Source: Candidatus Poribacteria bacterium
GTDB taxonomy: Bacteria; Poribacteria; WGA-4E; WGA-3G
Direction: 5' to 3'
Length of the DNA stretch: 64,000 nucleotides
Assembly (NCBI GenBank): GCA_958295815.1
Contig: OY282374.1
Location: 1-64,000 of the forward strand
Positions 606-62,160 of this stretch are shown piece after piece. The notes under the pieces are model-generated. The model saw nothing but the letters and a program-made list of their open reading frames with translations. It did no database searches and was not told the origin of the DNA. Position 1 is the first letter of the stretch. The number at the start of each line of letters is the position of its first letter. A program made the translations under genes and the position numbers.

Positions 606-2597
606 TTAAAACGGTTTAACAATGACGGCTTTGGAAACAAGGGCAATTGCAACAGTTCCCATGCCGATGAGACCGACCCCGCATGCGAATCCTGCTGCAA
701 GCACAGGATTGAACATATACCAGCGCCGCATTCCAAATCGCTTGATCATGTAGAACCGCCCGATGACTGCGCCGAGTAGTCGTGTAACCATACTTCCTGG
801 GTCTGCGCCGATACCACCGATAATCCCGTAGTACCACATTGAAGGCAGTTTGAATACCCACAGCATACCGTAAATTGCAAGACTTGAGGTGAACCCAGCG
901 GCGACATAATCGCCGCGAATGGCTTGGAGCATCTGACTATTTCCATCCCGAAGCGATGTTTTCCAGAGACACTCGTTTGTCGCGTTAATGGGCCACATCA
1001 TCTGTGCAAACGGGTACTGTGCACTTGGAATAGGCGCAATCTTCCAGATAAAGTGAAGAACCACAATCCCACTGACGAGCAAAATTGGCATAATCAGCAG
1101 AGTTCCCGCAAGATTTGAGGTAAAGGTTGTGCCGGTCAATTCAAGAACTCGCCAACTCTGTGTGCCACGTCCATAATCTTCGTCTGGTAGCGGTGCGAAC
1201 CAGATGTCTACCTCTTCATAGCGACTCAAAATAAACGTGATTTCGTGCAGATATGGTATTTCAAAGAGGTCACGCCCTAAGACACCGAAAGTCCGTGCAG
1301 TAATATAGGAATTAATCGGCGTATACAGGAATGCGTAGCCGATCAAGAAACTAATTGGAAAATTCGGCACCATCCAGTGGATGAGCCAGACGAATCCAAC
1401 CATACCCACGAGCCACATTAAGCCCATCAACCATATCGGGAAATCGCCACGGTTCGGAGGTGTCGCGAAGGAGCCACGTTCGCCTGCCTTTTTCTGAGAT
1501 CTCCGTAGTTTAAAGAGCATCGGAATCGAAGCCGCCATACCAACGAGTGCGAGGCTAAAAGATTTACCCATACCGTAACTAATCCAGAAATCCAGACCGT
1601 TGAACAAACCAACACCGCGGACATCCAATCCGGGTGACCATTGATGGAGAATTTCGTATCGGTATAAGATTTGCGGGTTCAAGATAAATTGCGAAGCCAT
1701 CGCCGTGATGAATTCCGTCATAATAATCGGGAATGGCATCACGAATCCAATGAGCATTTGTCCAAAATCGGTTCGGAAAGCAAAAACGCCTGTTGGCGCG
1801 AAGCCTTCAATACTTTGTGTAAAATCTATCCACGGGATTTTCAGAATCTGAATCGGTTGACTCATCATGACCCCGGTGAGTGAGGGCACACCAATATAGA
1901 GGAACCCCCAAATCAACCCTGCCATAGAACCAATAGAGAAGACCCGCCACCGCCAGGTCTCTTCTTTACCTGTTGTTTCTGCGAGTGCGGTTGCCCCTTG
2001 CGCAGCAATCGGTGCCATCGGATATGGAAGCCGTTCAAGATCAGCCGTAAGGCGGAACAATATATATTGTCCACTGACAAATCGTAAAGTGCCGAGCAAC
2101 TTTCCGACAAGGTAGATGGCGATAGGCAGGAACCAGTCCGGGTGCATCAGACTTCGCGTGAGCACACCTACAGAATCACCTGCAGGCACGATCCAATCTG
2201 GAATTTTGTCGGCGATTTCATAAGAAGCTGCCTGTGGTGTATTGACAAAGTAGGCGTACCAGATAAAGTTCCGGTACTGCATCCCGCTACCAACAGCGGC
2301 ACCTGTTAATCCGAGGAGCATATAAAGCTCCTGTCGCCGTGCAGTTGTAAAGGAGCGCCGCGCAAGCTCGGTGAATAGAATAACGGCAACCCAAGGGGCT
2401 GCTTCAGCCCCGGATTGACCGGATACATAACTGAGATAGATGGAACCTGGCATCATCAGCAAGCCAACGAAAAGTGCTCCGACAAACACCTTGACCGTTA
2501 ACCCCGATTCAAAGGTACGGATGCCGCCTTCGATGTCGTATCGCTGTGCCCAAGATTGCCATTCATCTGCTTGTGATACTCTTTCTCTCGCCAAATT
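606..2597 (-). CDS. Large multi-pass membrane protein, OPT-permease-like
   Basis: A protein of about 663 residues dominated by hydrophobic segments; I estimate 12 or more membrane helices. The motif LERLPYPMAPIAAQG after the early helices and YTPINSYITARTFG later resemble oligopeptide-transporter (OPT)-type proteins, so a permease for peptides or metal chelates is possible; the substrate is unknown. A longer frame reaches a TTG at 2621, but nothing like a ribosome binding site precedes it. AAAGGAG lies about ten bases before a TTG at 2597, which I take as the start. It follows the 62-residue membrane protein at 2718-2906 and the giant protein at 2979-10325, all on the minus strand, so a shared transcript is likely. 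A large insertion near residues 370-400 is charged and probably cytoplasmic. Confidence 0.75.
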   Translation of the reverse strand, partial: NLARERVSQADEWQSWAQRYDIEGGIRTFESGLTVKVFVGALFVGLLMMPGSIYLSYVSGQSGAEAAPWVAVILFTELARRSFTTARRQELYMLLGLTGAAVGSGMQYRNFIWYAYFVNTPQAASYEIADKIPDWIVPAGDSVGVLTRSLMHPDWFLPIAIYLVGKLLGTLRFVSGQYILFRLTADLERLPYPMAPIAAQGATALAETTGKEETWRWRVFSIGSMAGLIWGFLYIGVPSLTGVMMSQPIQILKIPWIDFTQSIEGFAPTGVFAFRTDFGQMLIGFVMPFPIIMTEFITAMASQFILNPQILYRYEILHQWSPGLDVRGVGLFNGLDFWISYGMGKSFSLALVGMAASIPMLFKLRRSQKKAGERGSFATPPNRGDFPIWLMGLMWLVGMVGFVWLIHWMVPNFPISFLIGYAFLYTPINSYITARTFGVLGRDLFEIPYLHEITFILSRYEEVDIWFAPLPDEDYGRGTQSWRVLELTGTTFTSNLAGTLLIMPILLVSGIVVLHFIWKIAPIPSAQYPFAQMMWPINATNECLWKTSLRDGNSQMLQAIRGDYVAAGFTSSLAIYGMLWVFKLPSMWYYGIIGGIGADPGSMVTRLLGAVIGRFYMIKRFGMRRWYMFNPVLAAGFACGVGLIGMGTVAIALVSKAVIVKPF

Positions 2598-2717
2598 GAA
2601 TGTTCTCCTTTCTTTTGACAAAGGTGGGTAGATGTTTTCCGGTCTTGGTCCATATCAGCATCTAAGGAATACACGTCTGGCGTTCCTAAGGACCCTTCCA
2701 CCTCTATAATTCTGTCA

Positions 2718-2978: not shown

Positions 2979-5900
2979 TTAATCCGCTGGCGTTGGGACT
3001 GGCTCCAGTTGTCCTGTTGCCTGTTCATCTGTCCCTTCCGTTCTACCGCGTTCGTGGAATTCTGCCCGGATGTCAACGCTGAACGTCCGCCAAATCAGGA
3101 GCTGTTTCCGCAGTAGGTTAAGGAAACGTCGATTGACCCGCTTCCAAGAAGCGATCTCACCGCTCTCACGATGTACATCCAATGTGATTTTGTAAAGATC
3201 TTCCTCTTCTCCACCTACAGGGGATGTAACGAATTGGATAGATTGGCTCACACCTAAGTCGTAGGGTGCCAGCCATACCATCATGCTAATTTGATAGGCA
3301 TCTTCGTCTTCCACCGTGCTGAATGCGACTTGATCGGTATAGAAGTCACTGGCAGACTCGTCTGCATGTGCCTCGAAATAGTCGCGCATGAACACGTTCA
3401 AACCGAGTGACTCCTCTTCAAGGACGGTGAACGGGAGATTGAAGTGCCACACATCGCCTTCGGGTTCCGGCAGCTTCCATTTACGTTCAATATCGGGTAC
3501 CGCCATCCGTGAAGCTTTGATTGCTGGATACATGGTACTGAGTAAGACGACCAGCATAACGATAATCGTTGCGACAACAGTTGACATTGAGGAGTAATTA
3601 AGTGTCAATCCAGCGAGCCATCCGAAGTTTACAAGCGTTGTTGCGATTGCTTGTCCCATGAGGTACCCCAGAACAGCACCGACGATAGCGTATACGCACG
3701 CCTCTGCAAGGAATAAGAAGGCGATATGTACCGGCGCGAGTCCGACAGAACTATAAATGCTAATTTCTCGGACACGCTCATAGACTGCCCCAAGCATCGT
3801 ATTGAGTACGATAAGCGCAGCGATTAGGATTGGCACGAATAGATTGCCCATTCCACTGAAACTCGTCATTCCGATACTGCTGTAGAGGTATGTGTCTTTA
3901 TCGCGTCCTACAAAGAAATCAAGCGCGATGCGATTCATGAGAGGTGCCATGATGAGATCCAACTTATCAATCGCACCTAACAACTGTGGATCATCCTCTT
4001 GTGGTTCCATATTGACAGCGACGCTTCGGAGCGTACCGCCTTGGTTCATGACAACATCATACGGGAGAATGGCGACGCTGTCTGGTGTGAGGTGGAGATA
4101 TTTCTGTAACTCACCTTCAAGTGTTTCATCACCGGTTGCACCACGGCTGCGTTGTTGTTGCATTAACTGATAATCGACAGGTGTTAATTCTTCGCCGTCG
4201 TTGTCTGTGAGGTCCTTAAACCCGATTCCGAGGACACCAACAACGGTGAAGTCGGCACCGTAGACGGAGACAGTCGCTTTCCCCATGTCGCTTTCGGTAA
4301 TTTTCAGCAATTCCGCCATCCCTTTAGGAAGCACAATAGCATAGGGCCATTCTGTGGGCCACTCATTAGCGTCAGCAGGGTTAAACCATTTTCCGTACTG
4401 AAGATACCTGTTAATACCACTGACATCGGGTTCTGCTTCGTTCATTCCCACGAGCATATTCGCAGCAAAGGTTAGTGCTTCACCCGTGAGAGCATGAGTC
4501 GGCGGCGATGGATCAGCAGGATTCGCAGTACGTGTGAGTTGAACAAAAGACTGGTCTCCGGTACCTGAGGATTGATACCAGGCTCGCGGTGCAATGGAGT
4601 TCCGAACAACTACGATGGATTCTTCGTCTACCGTTTCAATGTAACCACCCTCCTCTAAAGCGACTTTGGCTTCCGCAATATCAATCGGTTGTTGTCCGTC
4701 CTTGACAAGGAGTTCGTTTTTACGTAGCAAGAGTCGTTCTAAGTCGGTAAGTGTGATTTGCGTCTTCTGCATGTCGTTCAGGACAGAGGTAAGCACCGGT
4801 TCTTCTAACGGACGCCAGTACTGGTCGCGGATGAGAAGTCCTGTGTAGCGAGGCGTTACCTGCGGAAGGCTTGTTCTGTTCGGATGCATGAACGTCCGCA
4901 CAGAGGTAAATGAGATGACGGTGAAAGTAAGAATTACCAATGTGCAGCATGTTAGGATTGTCCGACCTTTCCGTTTCCGCATGTTAGAAATCCCTAAACT
5001 AAACGCCGCAGCACTCGCACTCAACCTTCCGACATCTGCTTTGTAAACCTTGCTTCCCTCCTGCCGAATCTTTTCGAGTTGTTCCTCGAATTTTCGGACA
5101 ATGATACTGATGACAATAACTGTCAACGCGAGCACAACGAACGCGATTAAAATAATTACTGGAGTCGTTGTAATTTGGAACGCCGGGTGGACTTGACTGA
5201 GGAAGAAGAATACGAGCAAGAAGATCCCGAAGGAACCCAAAATCTGCTTGTGGATGTTTGGGAAACCGAAGATAAGACGTTCCATAAAGTAGGCGAACGG
5301 CATTAGTAGGGCGAGGTAGAACATCACACCGTTGACGACATCGTTACCAGTCTGCTTGACATCTGGATAGGCACGTGATTCATAGCCCCATGCGGCGCGT
5401 GCGAGTTTGAGTGCTTGCTGATAATCGTTTTGTAGCAGCTCAGTCTCTGCGCGTGTGAGATAGTCATTTGCGAATTGATGGAGTTTGTCAAGCCGATCAC
5501 TGGAGATACCGAAACGTTTATAGAGTTGTGATCGGTTTTCATCGAGCCACCACATATCGCGGACAACGACGTACGGCGTAAGGCGAATCTGCCCGTTCTC
5601 GCGGACAACGAATCCTTCGCCGGTGTAAAGCGTCGGGTTTTTCATCCCACTCTTCGTTGCTTTGATGAGTAGGAGACGTTTACCGATTTGCCCATAAGCC
5701 ATTCCGATCTTAATGCGAGTGTTTGGTTCGCTATAAACGAGTGCAATCGGTTCAGCTGCGGAGACGCCTTCCTGCTGCCACGGCTTTGACATCCCGTACT
5801 TCTCTGGCGCGCTATCAGTGAGTGCGTCGTAGACTTCAAGTTCCCGAAGGGTTCGCAGATACCGTTGGTCCACGAGGTCGTAGATTGTTGTAGATACGCA

Positions 5901-8900
5901 CGGGAATGTGACAATCCGACAACCACGTCTTCGGGTGTTGATAGGGATTTGATTAGGTAGCAGTTTTGCTCCGTAATTCCCTAAATCAGGTGCGTAGACG
6001 ATGTCTCCAGAATCTGGATCAAGAATATATGCTTCAACTTCTTGAACACCCCTGAGGCGCCGTGTAGCTCTACCTTCCATGGCTAACCCGGCAACTTCAA
6101 AGTTTCCCTTGTTATCACCCATCACAAACAGGTCTCCGCGGACACCCATCATGCTTTTATGCTTTCTACGAAGTGTTATGATAGGATACGGGACGGGTTT
6201 ATTCGGTAGTGCGGACTCGCGTGCATCAAATTCGACGACATCGCCGAAGAGATTGCAGTAGAAATTTCCGACGCGTGCAGCGGTCGGCATCTCTTCATCG
6301 CGGAGTGCTTGGATGAGTAGGGATGCGAGTGTTTGTGCTTGCTGATGGAGATTACCGCCTTCGTTCAAATCGACCCGTTCAATTGTGTCGAGCGGCGTAT
6401 CGGTTAGAACACGAGCGTCTTCGATGGTTGCGAAAGCGATACCGGTTTTTCCGACAAGTGTTGCTACTTCGCTGTCAAAGGCGATCTTACCCGGAATATA
6501 GGTTTTCCACGTTTTTCCACCGCTTGCGGAGATGGCGTTAACAAAGTTTGAATCGCCACCGAGACCTACGATTGAAATGAGGGTTTTGATGTCCTCTATT
6601 TCGTCCTCGGAGAAAGTATCCGGATCTTCGTGTCGGAGACGCAGCATTGCGTCCAACTGTTCGCGTGTCCGAATATTGTTCTTCCGATTTTTCTTTGCAG
6701 TGCGGACATCATTTCGGATGAAACGCTCGACCTCTTTGCGGATATAATCCATGTCCTTGAGCATGTCTTCGGAAGGTTCACCTTGGTTCCGCCACTGTTC
6801 AAATTGCATTTTCATCAGACGACTTACACCACTGAGGCCGGTGAGTTTGCCGAAGTGCGAACTGAGCAAGGTTTCAAGGGTTTTTCCTTCAAGGGCGGAT
6901 TTATCAGAGATCCCGTTTGCCACTGTCCATTGGCGTGCCATAACGGCTTGCCGGATTTGGTCATCTGTCCACTGCCACAGCTTTCGGACGCGGACCCCAA
7001 AGTCTGCATCTTCTGCGTAGGAGGCGAGTTGGTTGCCGATACTCGCAAACTCGCGGCGCAGGACAAATTCGGGCTGTTGGTCGTAGAACCATCCCTTGTT
7101 GAATACACCAAACTGATTCGATTGTGAGGAGAGGTCAATGCTAATATAAAGAGAGGTATAGTAGCGATTGAAAAGGTCTTGAAGTGCGATAGCGGCTTCA
7201 ATCTGTCCGAGTTTTCGATTGTATTCTCCCGTATCAATGCGCAACATCTTTTCAATACGACTCTGGATGTTACGGAATCGAGCATTTCGGAGCGTCAGCA
7301 TGTTATCTCGCAAGAGGACTTTAGTCTCTGCATCAAGGTCGGTGTCTAAGGTGGGCAACCTTTCTATGAGGTTTTCAAGTGCGACTATGTCTGTTTCTGT
7401 GCGTTTTTTGACGGTTGCCAACAATTCTGATTCGATAATGTGTGATGCGATGCGAGCGCGCAACTTAAGTGCTTGCTCCACTTCGCTGTCCGAGAGGTAG
7501 TTTTCCAAGATGAGTTGTTCTTCATCGAGGTATTCTCTTCCGAGCGTTCCAGCAGTTTCGATCAAATTTTGAACACGTGTCCGCTCCAATCGAGCGTTCC
7601 GGAGTCCAATTTCAAAGATGCTCTGCTTGTCTTTGAGCAGATCAGTTATTAGGACTGCAATATCGGTAGGGTCCTCGGATTCCGTTAAGCGTTGTCGAAG
7701 TTGTGTGTCGATACTGTTCAGGCGTTCGATACCGGCTTTGGAGAGGAATTTCCCACCGTAGAGCAGGGAATTGGCATCTTGCGACGTGGGTGCTTCCTTG
7801 AGTCTACGAATGCTCGTTTTGATTTGATTTTCAGCAGATTCGCTATCAGGGATTTGGGCTAAGATTTTTTCAAGTAATTGTGCCTCTCGTTGGATAGCGA
7901 TTTCTTGGGACTCGCTGGCGTCGCGCAGAACACTGCGCGCATCTTTCACTTTATTGAGAGCGTGTAAATCGAGATGCCTGTCCATTATCTTCTCAGGCGT
8001 CCACATTAGGGCGAATTTGCGTTTATCGCTCAATTCCCAGTCTGCGAGCGTCTCGTTTAGCATCTCAAGGTCAGGGATCAGTTCTTCAGGGAGGTCTCCG
8101 GGTACCGGAATTTCCCAACCGGAACCTTGTTGTACAGGAAGCAAATAGGAATCGTTTGGGTGTGTGGCATATTCGTCGGTAGTACCGGTTTCTATGGCGC
8201 GAGTCAGTTTTTCTGCAGCCCAGATGTCGAGGCGGGCGATCGGCAGTGCAAGCGTATCAATTAATTCACGCTGTGCTGTTCGGCTTGTGTTAAGTGCAAC
8301 AGTACGAACATCAGCTAACTGGTTGACAATATCCCGCAGAAAATGCGTTGTTTGCAGTGCTTCTTTCTTTGAGCGTGCAAGGTTTGCCAATAGTATGCTC
8401 TTCTCTTCGCCTGTAAAATCTTGTTTCTCGCGTTTTCGGTTCTTATCTGCTTGTTTCTTCTGACGTTCTGAGAAGTCGCGCTGCTGATTTGTCAGAGTTT
8501 CAATCTCGGATCGGGTTTCTGACAATCCATCAAGGGTTGTTGTCAGGGAGTCCAGGTCAGACTTTACGTTATATATACCGTGGAAGAAATCGGAAGGGAG
8601 ATCAACTAAGACGCTCCGGTCAATTGAGAGCAGAAGTCTTCTACCCAGTTCTTCGAATTCAATGACATCTGTAGACAATCCACGGCGAAGTCCGTGCATC
8701 GTTGGTGTACCGGGGGCATCTGTGTCACTGCCGACAATGTCCTGACCGATACCTTCCATGAATGCGCGCATACCAGCGATCCCTTGGAAATGCCCATCAA
8801 CTGCGACGAAAAGGACAGAATAGCCGGGACGATATTGTGGTAGGCTAAAGAGTCGAGCGAGTTCCATAAGGGTCGCGATACCACAGGTTGGGTCTGCCCC

Positions 8901-10325
8901 GGGTGCCATAGCAGGCACAATGGACATGGCATCATAGTAAGCAGTCAGAACGATAAGTTCGTCTCGTAGTGATGGATCGCCGCCCTCCAAGAAACCACGT
9001 ATATTCTGACCGACACCGCGTTCCCAAGTCATTTTACCTCTGACGCGGACGTTAAGCTGATTTCCTTTGTTGTGTTCTTGTTCAATCAAATTAGTGAGGG
9101 AAGCTGCGTCTTCTTTAGAAATCCAAAATCGCGGTATGTTGGCAGGAACGGTGCCAAATTTGTTCTCTGCTTCCCCTCGGATCGTTGTTTCGGGTTCGAT
9201 AAAGATAACAGCGGTGCCGCCGAGCATTGCCGCGTTGATATAGCGAGTGCTGGAGTTAAAATCGAGGAGGACTATAGCACCTTTCGGTATGAAGATGTGT
9301 GCTTCACTCGCAGCGACGAATTCGCCAGATTCATCAATTTGTCCGTTATTGTTATTGTCGATATCATCGTTGTCGTCACCTGGGGTTTCGTCTGTCCAGC
9401 CGTCGGCATTATTGTCGATACCATCTGTTGCCCATCCAAGGATTTCGGAGAGTAGTGGAATTTCGCCGTATTCATCGATGGTGCCGTCTTCATCGTTGTC
9501 AATGCCATCGGATGCTTTCTGCAGATGTCCATTGAGTACGTCATCGGTGATGCTGGCTTCGGTGATACGGTAGCGTCGGGCAAGCGATGTAAGTGTATCA
9601 CCGTCTTGGAGTTTATACCAGAATCCGCCGATGTTGGTGCCGTTAAAGTCGGCGAGTTCGCCATCGTCACCGTCAAGAAGCGGACCAGATAGACCGCCAG
9701 TTGGAATGAATACGGTGCTTCCTTCTACAACAGGGGTCGCCAAGAATTTGTTTCGTTCATCTGCGAGGATAACCTCTTCCGGAATCTTATAACTTGCTGC
9801 GATGTCTTGGAGCGTTTCGCCTACTAAGGCGATGTGCTTAATTCCGTCTGCTAATAGAGAAGTTCGGACGAGATTCGGCCACAGGGGAGTCAGTTTGAAA
9901 CTATGTAGGACAGTGCCTTCCGGTGAGATAATTTCAATAACGCTGTCACCATGATCAATCGGCACAGTAACAGGGAACTCGCGGCTTTCCACGTTCTGCA
10001 AACCAATTTCGACGAACCGGTCGAAGATATACTTGCTACCGCTTGCGGCTTGTGGATAACCTGTTACACGGCTTTCCAAACTCGACAGACGTGCGAGGTC
10101 TTTCCGGATATTACCGATCGACAGATCATCTCGGATCTGGATAGCTGCGGTTTTCATCCCGGTGCTGGAAACTGTTTGGGTGTATGCGATGTTGCAAAGT
10201 CCACTGGCGAGGAAAATAAAGATGCAAAGGATCAAGGCACAGTTTGTGCGCGTGGGTTGCACGGTTAGATTTGCTATGGCACTGAAAGGTCGCGAGTCGT
10301 GCTTACTCCTACTACGAATTCTCAT
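2979..10325 (-). CDS. Giant envelope protein: LysM, Ca-loop repeats, degenerate M28 peptidase, helical region, FtsX-type permease
   Basis: At 2448 residues this is the largest gene in the window. In order: an N-terminal signal anchor (about 28-48); two LysM-like modules (about 160-208 and 235-262) that would bind glycan or peptidoglycan; three Asp-rich loops of the type DGIDNDEDGTIDE (about 270-335), probably binding calcium; an M28-like domain (about 350-540); a long charged helical region (about 540-1200); beta-rich domains; three or four membrane helices (about 1660-1805); an extracellular domain; and three C-terminal helices (about 2155-2275) typical of FtsX/MacB permeases, followed by a 170-residue tail. 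GGGAGA precedes the ATG by nine bases. The M28 part keeps GADPTCG and LMELAR, but the usual metal His reads Tyr (AYYDA) and the usual Glu-Glu reads His-Phe (DGHFQG), so peptidase activity is doubtful. No ABC ATPase is visible in the window. Confidence 0.9.
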   Translation of the reverse strand: MRIRSRSKHDSRPFSAIANLTVQPTRTNCALILCIFIFLASGLCNIAYTQTVSSTGMKTAAIQIRDDLSIGNIRKDLARLSSLESRVTGYPQAASGSKYIFDRFVEIGLQNVESREFPVTVPIDHGDSVIEIISPEGTVLHSFKLTPLWPNLVRTSLLADGIKHIALVGETLQDIAASYKIPEEVILADERNKFLATPVVEGSTVFIPTGGLSGPLLDGDDGELADFNGTNIGGFWYKLQDGDTLTSLARRYRITEASITDDVLNGHLQKASDGIDNDEDGTIDEYGEIPLLSEILGWATDGIDNNADGWTDETPGDDNDDIDNNNNGQIDESGEFVAASEAHIFIPKGAIVLLDFNSSTRYINAAMLGGTAVIFIEPETTIRGEAENKFGTVPANIPRFWISKEDAASLTNLIEQEHNKGNQLNVRVRGKMTWERGVGQNIRGFLEGGDPSLRDELIVLTAYYDAMSIVPAMAPGADPTCGIATLMELARLFSLPQYRPGYSVLFVAVDGHFQGIAGMRAFMEGIGQDIVGSDTDAPGTPTMHGLRRGLSTDVIEFEELGRRLLLSIDRSVLVDLPSDFFHGIYNVKSDLDSLTTTLDGLSETRSEIETLTNQQRDFSERQKKQADKNRKREKQDFTGEEKSILLANLARSKKEALQTTHFLRDIVNQLADVRTVALNTSRTAQRELIDTLALPIARLDIWAAEKLTRAIETGTTDEYATHPNDSYLLPVQQGSGWEIPVPGDLPEELIPDLEMLNETLADWELSDKRKFALMWTPEKIMDRHLDLHALNKVKDARSVLRDASESQEIAIQREAQLLEKILAQIPDSESAENQIKTSIRRLKEAPTSQDANSLLYGGKFLSKAGIERLNSIDTQLRQRLTESEDPTDIAVLITDLLKDKQSIFEIGLRNARLERTRVQNLIETAGTLGREYLDEEQLILENYLSDSEVEQALKLRARIASHIIESELLATVKKRTETDIVALENLIERLPTLDTDLDAETKVLLRDNMLTLRNARFRNIQSRIEKMLRIDTGEYNRKLGQIEAAIALQDLFNRYYTSLYISIDLSSQSNQFGVFNKGWFYDQQPEFVLRREFASIGNQLASYAEDADFGVRVRKLWQWTDDQIRQAVMARQWTVANGISDKSALEGKTLETLLSSHFGKLTGLSGVSRLMKMQFEQWRNQGEPSEDMLKDMDYIRKEVERFIRNDVRTAKKNRKNNIRTREQLDAMLRLRHEDPDTFSEDEIEDIKTLISIVGLGGDSNFVNAISASGGKTWKTYIPGKIAFDSEVATLVGKTGIAFATIEDARVLTDTPLDTIERVDLNEGGNLHQQAQTLASLLIQALRDEEMPTAARVGNFYCNLFGDVVEFDARESALPNKPVPYPIITLRRKHKSMMGVRGDLFVMGDNKGNFEVAGLAMEGRATRRLRGVQEVEAYILDPDSGDIVYAPDLGNYGAKLLPNQIPINTRRRGCRIVTFPCVSTTIYDLVDQRYLRTLRELEVYDALTDSAPEKYGMSKPWQQEGVSAAEPIALVYSEPNTRIKIGMAYGQIGKRLLLIKATKSGMKNPTLYTGEGFVVRENGQIRLTPYVVVRDMWWLDENRSQLYKRFGISSDRLDKLHQFANDYLTRAETELLQNDYQQALKLARAAWGYESRAYPDVKQTGNDVVNGVMFYLALLMPFAYFMERLIFGFPNIHKQILGSFGIFLLVFFFLSQVHPAFQITTTPVIILIAFVVLALTVIVISIIVRKFEEQLEKIRQEGSKVYKADVGRLSASAAAFSLGISNMRKRKGRTILTCCTLVILTFTVISFTSVRTFMHPNRTSLPQVTPRYTGLLIRDQYWRPLEEPVLTSVLNDMQKTQITLTDLERLLLRKNELLVKDGQQPIDIAEAKVALEEGGYIETVDEESIVVVRNSIAPRAWYQSSGTGDQSFVQLTRTANPADPSPPTHALTGEALTFAANMLVGMNEAEPDVSGINRYLQYGKWFNPADANEWPTEWPYAIVLPKGMAELLKITESDMGKATVSVYGADFTVVGVLGIGFKDLTDNDGEELTPVDYQLMQQQRSRGATGDETLEGELQKYLHLTPDSVAILPYDVVMNQGGTLRSVAVNMEPQEDDPQLLGAIDKLDLIMAPLMNRIALDFFVGRDKDTYLYSSIGMTSFSGMGNLFVPILIAALIVLNTMLGAVYERVREISIYSSVGLAPVHIAFLFLAEACVYAIVGAVLGYLMGQAIATTLVNFGWLAGLTLNYSSMSTVVATIIVMLVVLLSTMYPAIKASRMAVPDIERKWKLPEPEGDVWHFNLPFTVLEEESLGLNVFMRDYFEAHADESASDFYTDQVAFSTVEDEDAYQISMMVWLAPYDLGVSQSIQFVTSPVGGEEEDLYKITLDVHRESGEIASWKRVNRRFLNLLRKQLLIWRTFSVDIRAEFHERGRTEGTDEQATGQLEPVPTPAD

Positions 10326-10720: not shown

Positions 10721-11125
10721 GTGAACAAGGAATCGAAAGAATCTAAGAGGGCTGATAAAGTCGTTTCACGTATAAAACTGCGTCGCCGTGAGTTGAAGAT
10801 GACACAAACGGAACTCGCGAATGTAGCGAATTTAACGCCAGCCGCAATCTCGCAGTTTGAGTCGGGAACCCGTAAGCCTTCGTTTAATACGCTTTCCAGT
10901 CTCTCCGATGCTCTAAAGGTGACCACCGACTATTTGCTTGGAAAGGAGGAGAGGCGGTACGACGATCTCTTAGCCGACCCAAAGGTAAGTAGTATGTTTC
11001 AGGGCATGATGGAATTTACAGAGCAGGACAAGGACACGCTCTACGAGTTTTATGAATTTCTCAAGACGAAAGCGGAAGCGGCCAAGGCAGCGGCGGAAAA
11101 GAAATCACGCTCAGATACAGAATAG
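10721..11125 (+). CDS. XRE-family helix-turn-helix transcriptional regulator
   Basis: A 134-residue DNA-binding regulator. Residues about 17-72 form a Cro/CI-type five-helix domain: the turn helices read TQTELANVANLTPAAISQFE, followed by GTRKPSFNTLSSLSDALKV, which is characteristic of the family. The C-terminal 60 residues are charged and end in an alanine/lysine-rich helix, possibly for dimerisation. The start is GTG at 10721, preceded by AGGAG at the proper spacing. It is transcribed away from the giant FtsX-type gene across a 395-bp region, so it may control that operon, itself, or both. No effector domain is visible. Confidence 0.9.
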   Translation: MNKESKESKRADKVVSRIKLRRRELKMTQTELANVANLTPAAISQFESGTRKPSFNTLSSLSDALKVTTDYLLGKEERRYDDLLADPKVSSMFQGMMEFTEQDKDTLYEFYEFLKTKAEAAKAAAEKKSRSDTE

Positions 11126-60891: not shown

Positions 60892-62160
60892 TTAGTCCTC
60901 AGTGCGTAGGGCATCGATAGGCGAAAGACGTGCCGCCTGCATCGCCGGATAGACCCCAAAACTAACCCCCATGAAAATAGAGAAAATAACAGAAGCAATC
61001 ATCCATGGTAGAGAGAGGACAGCGGGCCATTCCGGCACGATTTGCACGATCCGAACAGCAAGGCGTGACATACCTTGCGCTGCTGCCCAGCCGCCCGCGA
61101 CACCGAGTACACCGCCACACAAACAGAGACAGATCGATTCCGTCAGAAATTGCAAGAAGATGTGAGTCCACTTTGCCCCAACCGACTTACGCAAACCTAT
61201 TTCCCGCGTCTTCTCACCCACAGAAACAAGACATATATTCATGATGCCGATGCCGCTGACGAAAAGGGAGAACCCAGCAATACTTCCTAAGGTGATCTTT
61301 ATCACCTTTTCGATATGTTCAAGTCGCCTGGCTGTCCGTTTTGCTATCCAAAGTCCGATAAAGTCATCTTTTCCTCTGTGTCTTTTCCGCAAGACGTGTT
61401 TAACCGAGTCAACAATATCATCAATATTGGCACCCTTTTTAAAGAATACAACCATGTCTTCAAGATAACGGGTGCCTGTAATCCGTTGTTGGTATGTTGT
61501 TAGCGGCACGCAAAGAGCGTCATCTAAAGAATACCAGATGCTGAGACTGCGACCTTTTGTTTTCATCACACCGACAACCTTCAACCTTACCGGCACCCGA
61601 TGCCGCCAACCATATTGGATCTTCACCTCTTGTCCAAGTGGAGAGGTTTCTCCAAACAGCTCAGTAGCGGTGTCGGCACCCAAAACACAGACCTGCTTTG
61701 CATTTTCGATATCGCCTTCGGTGAGGAATCTGCCGCTGTCAAGCTCCCAGTACATGCCGCGGGCATAGTCTGCAGTAACACCTTCTAAGAGCGGTCTGGA
61801 TTGATTTCCGTTTCGACTCGTAACAAGGTTCGTGTAGCCTTCATGTTTAGGCAAAACATATAGGACATTGGGGCATTCTGCCTCAATGGCATAAGCGTCT
61901 TCGAGGGTGTATCGCTCGGTTGTGCGTCGGACAATGCGATTTCGTTTCCAAATATGAGAACGGGTCCAGAATTGGACTTGGTTTGCACCACCAAGTGTTT
62001 CAATGTCTTGAGCGATGAGACGTTTCGCACCATCACCGATTGCTATCATGCACAGGACACTGGCGATCCCGATGAAGATACCGAGAATAGATAAGCCTGA
62101 ACGGAGCGGATTTTGCGCAAGATGGGCAATACCTGAAGAAATAGCGTCAAGTAGTTTCAT
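60892..62160 (-). CDS. MacB/FtsX-type ABC transporter permease
   Basis: A 422-residue membrane protein: helix 1 (about 17-45; GLSILGIFIGIASVLCMIAI), a large MacB-like extracellular domain (about 50-290; LPKHEGYTNLVTSRNG, VCVLGADTATELFG), then three C-terminal helices (about 295-415) with EKTREIGLRKSVGAKW between them, the coupling-helix motif of the family. It would need an ABC ATPase and probably a membrane-fusion partner, neither of which is in the window. No ribosome binding site is seen; a promoter ends 12 bases before the ATG, so the transcript may be nearly leaderless. Confidence 0.92.
   Translation of the reverse strand: MKLLDAISSGIAHLAQNPLRSGLSILGIFIGIASVLCMIAIGDGAKRLIAQDIETLGGANQVQFWTRSHIWKRNRIVRRTTERYTLEDAYAIEAECPNVLYVLPKHEGYTNLVTSRNGNQSRPLLEGVTADYARGMYWELDSGRFLTEGDIENAKQVCVLGADTATELFGETSPLGQEVKIQYGWRHRVPVRLKVVGVMKTKGRSLSIWYSLDDALCVPLTTYQQRITGTRYLEDMVVFFKKGANIDDIVDSVKHVLRKRHRGKDDFIGLWIAKRTARRLEHIEKVIKITLGSIAGFSLFVSGIGIMNICLVSVGEKTREIGLRKSVGAKWTHIFLQFLTESICLCLCGGVLGVAGGWAAAQGMSRLAVRIVQIVPEWPAVLSLPWMIASVIFSIFMGVSFGVYPAMQAARLSPIDALRTED

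Follow-up and report, generated by a model that had tools for sequence, protein, structure and literature searches.

Background

In type VII ABC systems, ATP binding drives movement in the periplasm, and a periplasmic or membrane partner typically defines the system or mediates its action (PMC12646458). In FtsEX, this movement passes through the coiled coil of EnvC to its LytM domain, activating amidases (PMC7668044). The locus described here is comparable in that a type VII ABC permease is joined to long helices and to a peptidase-like domain, as FtsEX is coupled to a regulatory domain of this kind at the peptidoglycan (PMC7668044); it differs in being a single chain with an M28 fold instead of M23/LytM, and in belonging to a genome with a separate FtsEX. 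The analogy with FtsEX drawn in an earlier note on this DNA, with the EnvC coiled coil and LytM domain as counterparts, thus stands as a description of how the protein may work and fails as an identity. YbbAP-TesA offers another likeness, since there too a hydrolase-fold domain accompanies an FtsX-class permease that exceeds the four-helix type (PMC12646458); a YbbAP structure (9ge7) was matched by Foldseek at E 2e-7. TesA is, however, a separate active esterase, and YbbP has ten transmembrane helices and two periplasmic domains. With LolCDE and MacAB, the locus shares the permease fold and the ATPase class, whereas its permease and ATPase score far under the family cut-offs and its partners are different, LolC/E-LolD being encoded separately in the genome.

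Many Candidatus Poribacteria are sponge-associated, and almost no experimental cell biology is available for this phylum or for Armatimonadota. In this work, we focused on a giant protein of Poribacteria encoded in a 64 kb stretch of DNA (hereafter the window), which is the start of a single 5.13 Mb contig. The earlier note had read this protein as a fusion of LysM, calcium-loop, M28-like, helical and FtsX permease parts. We assessed its architecture, its distribution and its gene neighbourhood. With the same core and the same neighbours in a second phylum, it seems to be an ancient envelope machine yet to be described, and not a freak fusion. Within the incomplete coverage of our literature search, no FtsX-M28 fusion, PA-M28-FtsX protein or operon of this type was found.

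Methods

Hydrophobic and transmembrane segments were located with a Kyte-Doolittle scan. Structures were taken from AlphaFold models of residues 56-1255 (pLDDT 81.6) and 1340-2448 (pLDDT 80.9), with 57-58 family members, and compared using Foldseek; TM-scores against single PDB chains were low because each query was a multidomain fragment. Matches to the pilin SpaA and to Bet v 1/PsbP-like proteins were assigned to regions of the giant protein by aligned length, an inference, and are treated as weak leads.

Active-site residues were mapped by sequence alignment to Vibrio aminopeptidase and YwaD, and across 21 family members, this mapping being least certain at the deleted bridging Asp. We take the Vibrio residue numbers H97, E151, E152, D179 and H256 to apply to the mapped positions, D1064 and D1309 being, on our assumption, correctly placed by motif. 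Gene-row counts in Poribacteria refer to loci with enough flanking sequence. The raw search with the giant protein matched 85/85 Poribacteria genomes; as three of them (G042, G069 and G070) matched by a generic FtsX stretch only (E 1e-8 to 1e-9), they were excluded from the count.

Results and discussion

Distribution of the giant protein

The open reading frame is uninterrupted from its ATG (Table 1). Full-length orthologues, sharing 61-93% identity, occur in independently assembled genomes, so the protein is the product of neither chance nor misassembly. It is present in 82/85 Poribacteria genomes, and plasmid searches returned no homologue. Relatives that carry names are Candidatus Poribacteria metagenome assemblies, and a contig scan with short peptide patterns gave matches only in Poribacteria, Armatimonadota and unnamed bacteria.

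Homologues in Armatimonadota are mostly about 1480-1660 aa long and colinear with the giant protein, to which those compared are 38-44% identical; the most conserved parts are the coupling helix with FtsX TM1 (63%), FtsX TM2-4 (58%) and TM1-3 (57%). The search for homologues with the same domain order, advised in the earlier note, was thereby answered: the permease and the PA-M28 core are colinear in Armatimonadota, minus the Poribacteria inserts.

Table 1 Features of the giant protein and of its neighbours in the window
Feature	Position	Strand	Basis
Giant permease, 2448 aa	2979..10325	-	Open frame from ATG; orthologues
Hydrophobic N-terminal segment, res 28-50, signal peptide or anchor	10176..10244	-	Kyte-Doolittle scan
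PA/M28 N-terminal part, res 66-430, host of LysM1, LysM2 and calcium loops	9036..10130	-	Model, Foldseek; Pfam PA weak
LysM1, res 161-208, Poribacteria only	9702..9845	-	Beta-alpha-alpha-beta in model; alone below Pfam cut-off
LysM2 first part, res 235-262, Poribacteria only	9540..9623	-	Pfam LysM 26.1 bits > 20.9
Three DGxDNxxDGxxDE-like loops, res 270-335, ahead of last LysM2 strand	9321..9518	-	Sequence; low-confidence in model
M28 N-terminal core, res 441-533 (YYD 463-465, H512, F513 replace metal/catalytic residues)	8727..9005	-	Pfam; alignment
Helical insert 1, res 540-1050, long helices, Poribacteria only	7176..8708	-	Model; column occupancy
M28 strand with sole retained metal ligand D1064	7077..7160	-	Alignment
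Helical insert 2, res 1090-1245, Poribacteria only	6591..7058	-	Model; column occupancy
M28 C-terminal part, res 1262-1340; D1309 at M28's last-histidine position	6306..6542	-	Alignment
Beta-sandwich region, res 1352-1580, Ig/CnaB-like	5586..6272	-	Model; weak Foldseek to pilin SpaA (E 2e-3)
Three extra transmembrane helices, res 1662-1750	5076..5342	-	Hydropathy + model
FtsX transmembrane helix 1, res 1786-1806	4908..4970	-	Hydropathy, model, Foldseek
MacB_PCD-like periplasmic domain, res 1813-2155	3861..4889	-	Pfam, model, Foldseek
FtsX transmembrane helices 2-4, res 2160-2276	3498..3848	-	Pfam FtsX; model
Conserved cytosolic C-terminal domain, res 2283-2448, beta-rich	2982..3479	-	Model; within PDLC01991 match
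671-aa polytopic membrane protein, operon partner	606..2621	-	Gene row; without family match
P346, first 150 codons; gene continues over contig end	1..450	-	Gene row
Divergent XRE-type regulator, conserved beside giant	10721..11125	+	Neighbourhood comparison

The permease half

The later half of the giant protein comprises, in order, a beta-sandwich, helices, three extra transmembrane helices, FtsX TM1, a MacB_PCD-like domain, TM2-4 and a cytosolic domain. Pfam FtsX matched residues 2164-2274 at 46.2 bits (curated cut-off 25.5); MacB_PCD fell under its Pfam cut-off here and reached 32.8 bits (cut-off 27) in an Armatimonadota homologue (L096). Foldseek matched the C-terminal model to MacB, LolE and YbbP, with E down to 8e-12. 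The model helices, the Foldseek matches to MacB and LolE and the MacB_PCD match of L096 agree on the arrangement of TM1, a periplasmic domain and TM2-4. By the criteria of sequence and predicted fold, the giant protein is the permease of a type VII (FtsX/MacB-class) ABC system. The FtsX/MacB-type core claimed in the earlier note is confirmed by the Pfam match and by the model, where the FtsX fold occupies the very residues, 1785-2275, at which it had been expected. As Pfam found no ABC_tran domain in the protein, it is without the ATPase and permease on one chain that characterise MacB. The cytosolic C-terminal domain, of about 165 residues, gave a weak Bet v 1/PsbP-like match (E about 0.03).

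A PA-M28 domain without its active site

The N-terminal half starts with a signal-like segment, followed by a PA domain that holds the LysM modules and calcium-type loops, and by an M28 domain. Pfam M28 matched residues 441-524 at 25.7 bits (cut-off 21.3), Pfam PA stayed below its cut-off, and Foldseek matched the N-terminal model to the PA-M28 aminopeptidase 2ek8 (E 1e-10). The M28-like part of the earlier note is therefore genuine as a fold; its separation from the helical part is not, for there is one M28 domain, split by the two helical inserts, with its final third at residues 1262-1340.

At the active site, the position of Vibrio H97 is occupied by Y463 (Phe, Asn or another residue in some Armatimonadota), that of the catalytic E151 by H512, that of E152 by F513 (mostly Phe in the family, Cys or Gly in a few members) and that of H256 by D1309 (Glu in one member), while the bridging-Asp region is shorter by one residue. 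D179, kept as D1064, is the single clearly retained ligand out of five. No sampled family member restores the HxD/EE pattern. The ectodomain is thus, on alignment and model, a pseudopeptidase in both phyla, with a PA+M28 fold devoid of most metal ligands and of the catalytic glutamate; of the peptidase-like domain proposed earlier, the fold stood (Pfam M28, 2ek8) and the normal metal site and catalytic glutamate did not. An active M28 peptidase with a normal site is ruled out by these residues. H512 and D1064 are invariant in 21/21 family members, which suggests a retained binding function. The ectodomain also has sequence similarity to nicalin (E 7e-4) and, weakly, to the transferrin receptor (E about 4e-3). 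These two eukaryotic proteins are M28 relatives that have lost activity and serve in binding; neither is linked to an ABC transporter.

Wall-binding modules and inserts

Pfam LysM matched residues 237-260 of the giant protein at 26.1 bits (cut-off 20.9), and matched 7 of the 10 members scanned (7 Poribacteria, 3 Armatimonadota). LysM folds had been predicted at residues 160-262; the model has a beta-alpha-alpha-beta unit at 161-208 and a second LysM at 235-262, the last strand of which (343-346) follows the calcium-loop insert.

Column occupancy separates these modules from the rest of the protein: none of the 36 Armatimonadota homologues has LysM1, LysM2 or either helical insert, the calcium-loop columns are half-filled in 1/36, and the remaining domains are present in 34-36/36. 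Within Poribacteria, the inserts occur in 8/8 deep branches sampled, with the exception of LysM1, which is missing from some members (e.g. L073, L093). Judged from the alignment, the PA and M28 domains acquired the LysM modules, calcium loops and helices by insertion in Poribacteria. Because the wall-binding modules are absent from 36/36 Armatimonadota homologues, the family's core function cannot be to link ABC movement with the wall; wall binding is an addition and not ancestral, and the core is separable from this later tethering. The proposal of a machine linking ABC-driven movement to the cell wall consequently gains from the LysM modules in Poribacteria and is lost for the family as a whole, and none of the tests pointed to the surface layer suggested as the other possible anchor. 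Since the LysM family binds N-acetylglucosamine polymers, the modules would be expected to bind peptidoglycan; as a guess, the calcium loops may stiffen the tether.

Gene row and partners

The giant gene is followed on the same strand by genes encoding the polytopic protein, P346, a PqqD-fold protein and a LolD/MacB/FtsE-class ATPase scoring highest with LolD. The gene of P346 (346 aa) runs uninterrupted from the last bases of the contig into the first 450 bases of the window, and its homologues elsewhere are single genes at the matching place; the contig is therefore circular. A search to the left of the window, recommended in the earlier note for the missing ATPase, recovered the ABC ATPase 1.3 kb beyond that end. 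This ATPase shares 69% identity with its counterpart in the Armatimonadota operon and 61% with the second Poribacteria copy that was compared.

In Poribacteria, the polytopic protein was found in 66/68 loci, P346 in 60/64, the PqqD-fold protein in 59/63 and the ATPase in 53/58; the corresponding Armatimonadota counts were 16/22, 10/21, 8/21 and 10/20, with in addition a short FtsX (202-240 aa) ahead of the row ATPase in 11/21. One Armatimonadota locus (L128) has the short FtsX and ATPase upstream of the giant gene, and another (L127) the ATPase. The Poribacteria orthologue of the short FtsX (43% identity; 80/85 genomes) lies elsewhere in the genome with its own ATPase (L008). In Armatimonadota, a strong match (E < 1e-30) was counted in about 195 of 291 genomes. 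About half of the sampled Armatimonadota giants have no adjacent downstream ATPase, and some stand alone (L114, L122, L123, L124, L129), so the row partners may be in trans.

Of the 85 Poribacteria genomes, the three without the giant protein (G042, G069, G070) are exactly those that lack the polytopic protein, a co-absence that could reflect one assembly gap since the genes adjoin and the assemblies are drafts. Membership of the OPT family was considered and rejected for the polytopic protein, with no Pfam OPT match in 13 members and no PDB match. The 155-aa PqqD-fold protein (Pfam PqqD 43.7 bits, cut-off 23.4) is the sole PqqD of the genome, and no RiPP gene was recognised in the row; a RiPP context was rejected on these grounds. 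An XRE-type regulator gene adjoins the giant gene in most Poribacteria loci and is a possible regulator of the operon. Gene order suggests that the giant and the row proteins form a complex.

Alternative explanations

An efflux or lipoprotein-extraction permease of the MacB/LolCDE kind, with decorative domains, would account for the best fold matches (MacB and LolE) and for the preference of the ATPase for LolD. We consider it unlikely, as the giant protein obtained 25.7 bits with the MacB model (cut-off 966) and 17.6 bits with LolC/LolE TIGR02212 (cut-off 362), LolC/E-LolD is encoded separately in the genome, beside an Omp85 gene, and the gene row showed no recognisable MacA-like adaptor. Scores with the FtsX models were 15.1 bits (TIGR00439, cut-off 255) and 11.4 bits (NF038347, cut-off 225). 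Because the genome has its own FtsEX and its own LolC/E-LolD, the protein is not FtsX under another name; the family cut-offs and these copies together rule out cell-division FtsX and LolC/E. More doubtful still is an M28 domain that hydrolyses, by means of a rearranged metal site, substrates handed over by the ABC part. D1064 is kept and the conserved H512 sits at the catalytic-base position, where the matched PDB relative 2anp also has His; this structure is presumably that of the Vibrio E151H mutant, which is reported to remain functional. Delivery of this type would have a precedent in YbbAP-TesA, where a type VII ABC works with a hydrolase (PMC12646458). Against this, the H97, bridging-Asp, E152 and H256 positions are replaced or shortened, and HxD/EE is absent throughout the members sampled.

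The nearest named relatives of the giant protein, as far as sequence tells, are two PADLOC CARF_m8-LolE_TM models, PDLC01991 ('CARF_m8--CARF_LolE_TM') and PDLC01990 ('..Beta-galactosidase_LolE_TM'), which are colinear with it over the helices, extra transmembrane helices, FtsX core and most of the cytosolic domain. PDLC01991 matches residues 1994-2423 (E 1.8e-49; two stretches in the window protein) and, in L096, residues 811-1516 (E 9e-63; profile positions 31-683 of 810). A defence effector, that is, a CARF-LolE type membrane protein responding to a nucleotide signal, might be read from these matches, but it appears highly improbable. The PA-M28, LysM and helical inserts are missing from the model names, and positions 700-810 of the profile (the last ~110) found no match in six of six proteins, so that the CARF part, if placed by the domain order in the name, would be unmatched. 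The cytosolic domain is predicted by AlphaFold as beta-alpha-four strands-alpha, not Rossmann-like. No defence context was seen, and the near-universal presence of the protein in Poribacteria (82/85), in a fixed gene row, argues against a defence role, defence genes being patchy. The idea of a chance fusion or assembly artefact has a negligible probability and counts as already refuted: no point in its support was found, and it conflicts with open-frame, full-length orthologues throughout Poribacteria and with a colinear homologue in a second phylum.

Proposed mechanism

Omp85 genes imply an outer membrane, and hence that the ectodomain of the giant protein, about 1600 residues ahead of the permease core, faces the periplasm. 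In our view, the giant protein probably sits in the inner membrane of a diderm cell as the permease of a type VII ABC complex, which moves a pseudopeptidase tethered, in Poribacteria, to peptidoglycan. As the neighbouring ATPase binds and hydrolyses ATP, the FtsX helices would close and open and the MacB_PCD-like domain would move, and this movement would shift the pseudopeptidase through the beta-sandwich. The stroke of the dead M28 domain is proposed by analogy with FtsEX-EnvC, the pseudopeptidase being envisaged as a module that binds or presents rather than cleaves. The helices and LysM modules of Poribacteria would extend to the peptidoglycan and grip it, so that the wall would serve as the reference for the stroke, much as EnvC is moved by FtsEX. 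Whatever is moved probably has the polytopic protein as its partner, and the short FtsX, which neighbours the giant gene in Armatimonadota and lies at another locus in Poribacteria, is a possible second permease half. The complex, the stroke, the wall tethering by LysM and the role of the polytopic partner are all points that we infer.

More tentatively, these proteins could represent a new type VII ABC subfamily, ancestral to or shared by Poribacteria and Armatimonadota, in which ATP would drive a fused dead PA-M28 domain together with a membrane partner, a later LysM/helix insertion having turned it in Poribacteria into a one-chain, wall-tethered analogue of FtsEX-EnvC. If true, this would be a type VII ABC system with a pseudoenzyme output domain fused to the permease and conserved in two phyla. 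The giant protein, polytopic protein, P346, PqqD-fold protein, short FtsX and ATPase provide a concrete set for studying ATP-envelope coupling.

Variants and other permeases

Two Armatimonadota giants (L125, L126) reach 2030-2094 aa, with insertions of their own of ~80, 100 and 200 residues in and before the beta-sandwich region. A second giant copy of 2558 aa lies outside the operon in one Poribacteria family (L081, L082), and in another family the giant gene is followed by a tandem pair of the 671-aa protein (L055, L056, L064, L066, L074, L089). In some Armatimonadota (L096:14675-15534, L098:5691-6557), the giant and polytopic genes are separated by those of a GYF_2/DUF4190 protein and of another small protein that we read as DUF2752-like. 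Other permeases were also noted: an ordinary FtsX permease of 434 aa at positions 60919-61284 of the window (- strand), and a 1157-aa permease (L148) with two FtsX domains and its own adjoining ATPase at 2.86 Mb of the contig.
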